Shown: positions 13,890 to 14,100 of the stretch, piece by piece
Layout: each line of letters begins with the position of its first letter
Position numbering within the stretch: position 1 is the first letter of the stretch
From: Rhodospirillaceae bacterium
GTDB lineage: Bacteria > Pseudomonadota > Alphaproteobacteria > UBA8366 > Aestuariispiraceae
Reading direction: 5' to 3'
Assembly: GCA_002709955.1 (NCBI GenBank)
Contig: PAQY01000016.1
Span: 124,001-188,000, forward strand
Length of the DNA stretch: 64,000 bases
Program-made: the position numbers and the translations under genes
Notes under the pieces: generated by a model
Told to the model about the DNA's origin: nothing
What the model saw: only the letters and a program-made list of their open reading frames with translations
Database searches by the model: none

Positions 13890-13914
13890 AATCGCGTTTC
13901 ATGATGAATGATGG

Positions 13915-13942
13915 AAAAGCCCGCGCCTTGGCGCGGGCTTTT
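13915..13942 (+). terminator. Rho-independent terminator of petABC
   Basis: A 12-base perfect stem AAAAGCCCGCGC (13915-13926) and GCGCGGGCTTTT (13931-13942) with loop CTTG. The A/T ends make it usable on either strand, so it may also terminate leftward transcripts. Confidence 0.92.
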
Positions 13943-13947
13943 CTCAT

Positions 13948-14092
13948 TAGTGTGGTGCGCGGTTATTTGGAATCCCCAGGATCCCTTTATCGGACTGTCG
14001 GCTAGGAGAGAGCGTGCAGGCGATGTGGTTCATCGTCAAGAGCTCTCGACGCCGTCCGACAGGTCGATCCCAAATAACCGCGTACCACACTA
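13948..14092. mobile_element. Putative MITE: ~141-bp palindromic element with 23-bp inverted ends
   Basis: Between the convergent petC and exonuclease genes lies a long imperfect hairpin. The outer arms 13948-13970 and 14070-14092 match at 22 of 23 positions. Inner segments also pair: CTGTCGG with CCGACAG, GAGAGC with GCTCTC, and a central CGATG/CATCG hairpin with loop TGGTT. Both ends carry TA just outside GTGTGG...CCACAC, which would be the target duplication of an IS630/Tc1-like element. It has no coding potential. Alternatives are a repeat-family RNA hairpin or a bidirectional terminator. Confidence 0.55.
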
Positions 14093-14100
14093 GGCATGAA

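Follow-up and report, generated by a model that had tools for sequence, protein, structure and literature searches.

A TA-flanked palindrome beside a cytochrome bc1 operon as the deletion derivative of a repeated element with a conserved two-hairpin core

A palindrome that follows a cytochrome bc1 operon (Rieske, cytochrome b, cytochrome c1) and is bordered on its other side by a convergent exonuclease-domain gene raises the question of whether it is a fixture of this locus, such as a structured RNA or a terminator, or a mobile element that inserted there. The palindrome was found in a stretch of 64,000 nucleotides from a Rhodospirillaceae bacterium (the window; the genome is designated G000). 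An earlier note on this DNA had described a palindromic element of about 141 bp with terminal repeats and TA flanks, and the analysis confirmed this description. The imperfect palindrome occupies positions 13948-14092 with 141 bp between the flanking TAs (13950-14090), and its two arms (13948-13974 and 14066-14092, 27 nt each) are complementary at 25 of 27 positions (93%). The RNA fold predicted for positions 13940-14100 had an energy of -82.9 kcal/mol, compared with -48.3 kcal/mol for shuffled sequences (z -8.55; 0/200 shuffles as low), and the DNA fold of 13948-14092 gave a z of -9.09. A 21-base arm pattern, searched with up to three mismatches, matched only the two arms within the window (0.01 matches expected), and no Rfam family matched the window at its gathering score. 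The features of the locus are collected in Table 1.

Table 1. The palindrome and its immediate surroundings, in window coordinates (contig coordinate minus 124000).
Feature	Position	Strand	Basis or remark
Terminator-like hairpin, outside the element	13914..13943	+	after the cytochrome c1 gene; inverted repeat
Left TA	13948-13949	no strand	target-site duplication by analogy with sister copies (single TA in their empty sites)
Left terminal inverted repeat	13950..13974	+	outer part is TAGTGTGGTGCGCG, counting the TA
Hairpin 1 with conserved tip motif	13992..14065	+	R1 match, E 2.5e-14 (G000:C16:137992-138065)
Deletion junction GGTCGAT	14062..14068	no strand	single copy of the direct repeat GG[CT]CGAT; 119 bp (hairpin 2) gone
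Right terminal inverted repeat	14066..14090	-	inverted-repeat search
Right TA	14091-14092	no strand	target-site duplication by analogy with sister copies

Further copies in the genome, which the earlier note had proposed to look for, are present. Searching G000 (4.23 Mb, 24 contigs) returned 95 matching pieces, among which about 16-18 copies were recognized: 11 two-ended copies of 260-264 bp, two short copies (145 bp, which is the window copy, and 139 bp) and some three to five cut at contig ends, plus shorter remnants. Five contigs (C4, C16, C17, C19 and C22) start or stop inside element copies, making the copy number uncertain there. The exact 14-base end TAGTGTGGTGCGCG was found 30 times in G000, some of these being lone ends, versus 0 for the same pattern read backwards. 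Genes around 13 copies in G000 and 20 copies in the genome G022 were called with our own codon-usage script, and no preference for convergent gene ends was seen among them (4 convergent, 5 same-direction and 4 divergent in G000; 3, 11 and 6, respectively, in G022). None of these copies was spanned by a predicted gene (0/13 and 0/20), while one predicted gene overlaps copy L004 by 92 bases. Several copies abut genes or share a stop codon with them, as would be expected from the rarity of TA in coding sequence.

To place the insertions, the flanks of 11 G000 sites were joined in silico around one TA and used as queries against five congeners, of which three gave matches. At six of the 11 sites a congener aligned over the junction with a single TA (L007 in both G004 and G002; L020 and L011 in G004; L009, L012 and L013 in G002), with gaps of 1-3 bases beside the TA at L011, L009 and L012. 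Site L004 was empty in both G004 and G002, its edge differing by two bases. Searches of the five congeners gave no single-TA junction match at the four remaining sites: L005 matched G002 only in two parts separated by about 94 bases, L018 matched in disconnected parts, L010 matched on one flank, and L014 did not match at all. The single-TA empty sites, which the earlier note had named as something to look for, indicate that the TA was duplicated on insertion at these sister copies. Thus the element is short and multi-copy, contains no transposase gene, and has terminal inverted repeats, a target-site duplication and empty sites in relatives, all of which are features of a miniature inverted-repeat element (MITE); its TA target is that of the IS630/Tc1-mariner group.

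At the window site itself, the congener G004 carries an element of 264 bp. Compared with this element, the window copy is missing 119 bp comprising the second hairpin, and the junction falls in a GG[CT]CGAT direct repeat. The window copy therefore descends by deletion from a 264-bp element that has a conserved core. The predicted fold of the full-length copy has two arms rising from the terminal stem (z -15.1). In the congeners G002 and G003 the neighbouring genes are kept and no element lies between them, the spacer being too diverged to place the TA. The locus has a longer spacer in G005, and in G001 the neighbouring genes are apart. These observations bear on whether the palindrome might be a fixed structured RNA or a transcription terminator of this locus, as its strong fold and its position after a gene end would suggest. 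Such a reading is most improbable given the many copies in the genome, the lack of an element at the locus in G002 and G003, and the separate terminator-like hairpin that precedes the element. Copy number together with absence in congeners rules it out as the sole reading, and also excludes the case that the earlier note had set against a mobile element, namely only one copy in the genome, kept at the same place in distant relatives. A co-opted terminator role for the element is possible.

The core of the element consists of two head-to-head hairpins with one common tip motif of ~74 nt, which was modelled from 31 tips (model R1; 73 loci were given for the tip collection). Of 289 genomes sampled from the class, presumably Alphaproteobacteria, a search with R1 (Infernal's stricter filters, E limit 1e-4) found matches in 31, and 27 of 224 genera were represented, own genome and genus included. 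A search of relatives with the 264-bp copy as query matched 18 of 98 genomes, counting G000 itself, and among the matches listed outside G000, G004 and G001 neither element end was reached. The elements of these relatives have their own TA ends and are nearly the same length as the 264-bp element. Ends were sought in sets of 28, 16 and 20 loci, some of which overlap between sets, and full-size TA-bounded elements were found at 17, 7 and 17 of them, respectively, with lengths of 261-276 bp plus one of 286 bp (L185). The full-size count excludes a TA-bounded case of 185 bp (L087), and the other loci were at a contig edge, degenerate, cut by the search frame, two bases off (L078 and L134, which are the same place) or without TA (G006, G101). 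Tip pairs were head to head in 48/48 cases in the loci read, with a median spacing of 103 (range 100-120); unpaired tips lay at locus edges (10) or had room but no partner above threshold (13). Against Rfam, six loci gave six weak matches below threshold, none of them within the element. Searches of plasmids with two element types and of viral contigs with one tip pattern found no match.

The alignment of 117 distinct tips (A4) points to selection on the fold. Within it, 92.6% of cells pair and 22 of 23 pairs have changed on both sides (0/500 shuffles as high), and sliding the alignment by one column lowers pairing to 34-37%. On the sense strand, G.T outnumbers A.C by 258 to 23 in A4. A single pair position supplies 49 of these 258, the events are not independent because the rows are related, and A4 was built to fit the model, in which G.U is preferred to A.C. 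The corresponding count is 90 to 3 in A3, a MAFFT alignment made without structure and not fitted to the model, although the structure was predicted on it and its rows are likewise related. A double-stranded palindrome without strand-specific selection should have equal numbers of G.T and A.C, and the excess of G.T suggests that the core tips look selected as folded single strands, which might be RNA or single-stranded DNA. The tip loop also contains near-invariant bases, AGG opposite GAC, which, as read from the alignment, can pair as a tandem G.A enclosed by G-C pairs. The two tips being on opposite strands, one sense tip is presented whichever way the element is inserted.

The ends of the elements behave differently from the conserved inside. 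At positions 3-20 of the terminal repeats, identity was 0.97 within an element (n=23) and averaged 0.35 between elements (253 pairs), with shuffled sequences also at 0.35; these values refer to 23 chosen elements, three loci having been left out as duplicates. Some lineages nevertheless have an end type in common (e.g. G022 and G237), and two end classes were found within one genome in G007, G022 and G321. When eight end classes were placed on a tree of 36 cores, 10 rows of which were of uncertain orientation, 10 changes were required (minimum 7; shuffled mean 23.1), indicating that inheritance of the ends predominates and that some have been replaced. For none of the end classes tested do well supported branches require more than one origin.

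Matches to the IS630 family (DDE_3) occurred in G000 itself, in 6 of 13 further genomes and in 14 of another 23. The search for IS630 ends covered 34 loci, and three elements had their transposase domains checked. Using 12 blindly defined insertion sequences with ends scoring at least 17, 8 of 25 MITE end types matched IS630-family ends at p<0.05 (shuffle keeping the first five bases, uncorrected for 25 tries). Using 15 insertion sequences, 12 of 25 matched at p<0.05, again uncorrected, a result that is partly circular in that two of the 15 (L206 and L210) were re-framed by eye after their likeness to MITE ends was known. The 15 come from the 34 loci, the other 19 of which had no clear end pair or had pairs scoring 15-16. 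The best match (15/16) joins the ends of G007/G012 to an IS630-family element common to G000 and G004. None of the matching insertion sequences comes from the genome of the MITE it matches, and IS630 ends resemble one another in composition. The window element's own end type gave no significant IS630 match (11/16; p 0.20 with 15 insertion sequences, 0.14 with 12), and neither did 12 (15 insertion sequences) or 16 (12 insertion sequences) other end types.

No transposase with TAGTGTGGTGCGCG-like ends was found in IS630-family searches of the own and further genomes. Across 43 genomes of the order, the own-type end pattern had exact matches only in G000, G004 and G001, plus one lone site in G020, and reading the surroundings of five new own-type loci (L257, L259, L262, L263, L266) revealed no autonomous element. 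A single IS630-type element was found in G000 (L057 1399-2468, contig C7), with its transposase in two frames and with the ends TAGAGCATGATGATATTAGACGG and TAGAGCGTGATGATTTTAGACGG; it was rejected as the partner because these ends differ from those of the MITE. Hence the MITE reading of the earlier note stands, and its IS630/Tc1 assignment is supported by the insertion at TA and by the likeness of some sister elements' ends to IS630-family ends in other genomes; the element's own ends were matched to no transposase, and the IS630-like transposase with matching ends that the note had proposed to seek was not found in the genomes searched.

ERIC, Nezha and Correia/NEMIS, named in PMC3733652 and PMC2229807, are other MITEs. 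They too are short palindromes that often lie between genes and can fold as RNA, and by description the present element resembles them in these respects. RUP of Streptococcus pneumoniae, given as 107 bp with ends like IS630-Spn1 in PMC2229807, is likewise small, gene-less and TA-inserting with IS630-like ends; the present element differs in its 264-bp length, its two-hairpin core found across a class, its lineage-specific ends and its own partner, which the searches did not find. The IS630-family elements compared here (L057, L137, L139, L208, L218, and L206 and L210 framed by eye) share TA ends with the MITEs, and the classes TAGAG, TACCA and TAGT recur in both. In contrast to the MITEs, they carry a transposase gene and measure 1.05-1.26 kb, and on reading none was seen to have the two-hairpin core.

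Head-to-head pairs of a strand-specific hairpin are also the arrangement of REPINs, and the element could be a REP/REPIN-like unit in which two head-to-head palindromes are moved as single-stranded DNA by a RAYT (Y1), the outer repeats being incidental. Y1 proteins were found in G007 and G022, and there was no Y1 match at threshold in the other 12 of 14 host genomes searched, G000 and G004 included; mobilization by a RAYT was rejected on this distribution. Moreover, single-TA empty sites were seen, and the element has near-perfect outer repeats with a TA duplication, which to our knowledge are not REPIN features. PMC3733652 describes REP dimers inside TA-bounded palindromes in A. variabilis, a resemblance that speaks for a REP-like unit, and it gives the REP unit as 20-40 bp, with CGTC REPs predominating in alpha-Proteobacteria without known transposase. 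The unit here is a ~74-nt tip that lacks the GTAG or CGTC foot which that source places right next to a short stem, and it is enclosed by long terminal repeats, so that a REP/REPIN-like unit appears very unlikely.

The element is multi-copy, with TA duplication at sister copies, polymorphic insertion, a deletion and a conserved folded core. Judged from these sequence comparisons, it is probably a non-autonomous TA-inserting MITE that inserted at 264 bp and later underwent the 119-bp deletion, was mobilized in trans by the IS630 family and has its core kept as a fold. The 264-bp MITE would have entered a TA between the cytochrome c1 gene and the convergent exonuclease gene, moved by an IS630-family (Tc1/mariner-like) transposase recognizing its terminal repeats, and the second hairpin would then have been lost in this lineage by deletion between the short direct repeats. 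More tentatively, the core may be kept as a single-strand fold, either RNA or single-stranded DNA. Since either orientation would give one correctly folded tip, the element could be tolerable, or useful to itself, wherever it landed.

Different core lineages have unrelated ends, and it thus seems that, over time, different transposases have acted on the core. One reading, which we put forward as a possibility short of an even chance, is that the two-hairpin core is an evolving, orientation-independent RNA or single-stranded DNA module that captured several IS630-type ends in turn and spread class-wide by means of successive unrelated transposases. An ordinary MITE family whose ends diverged with their transposases, and whose core is a functionless long palindrome, would also account for the clustering of end classes on the core tree, the single origin forced for each tested class and the end type common to G022 and G237. 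This explanation seems rather unlikely, as outer ends show on average no residual similarity between elements, and the core keeps near-invariant loop bases and a sense-strand wobble excess that an unselected palindrome should not have.

A conserved structured core with exchangeable ends would be new as far as we know, its mechanism and function being what we infer from sequence. We know of no report of one MITE core with unrelated ends, and this core was described in no title or abstract opening of the open-licence literature searched, a scope mostly outside subscription journals, so that it may have been described earlier under a different name. Bacterial MITEs are commonly regarded as degenerate copies of a single insertion sequence, a picture that a conserved inside with variable ends reverses. 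The conserved inside raises the question of the core's purpose, which the sense-strand wobble excess makes testable. The elements also constitute a class-wide set of natural terminal repeats for the study of IS630-type transposase specificity.

Several end sequences in G000 were observed apart from complete copies. Lone 14-base ends without an adjoining element occur at G000:C16:68735, C1:17107, C1:114647, C2:72730, C11:159657 and C12:47693 (L049, L031, L032, L037, L047 and L048, respectively); these are possibly remnants, some keeping only the outer 14-20 bases. The first of them, L049, is common to contig PAKU01000002.1 of a MAG named Polycyclovorans (L108), whose two compared 40-base flanks are the same as in G000 and which looks like a misbinned contig. 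At L070 (G000:C4:101388-101423) there is a tandem pair of near-identical end-like motifs (CGCACCACACTA), 22 bp apart. At L072 and L071 (G000:C7:168842-168883 and C17:185727-185752), a right-end fragment abuts a second copy with the TA or its mutated form in common, an apparent insertion into the end of an older element. Finally, in L014 (G000:C22:153241-153504) the first hairpin arm seems to be turned around with respect to the ends, the match pieces being oppositely oriented.
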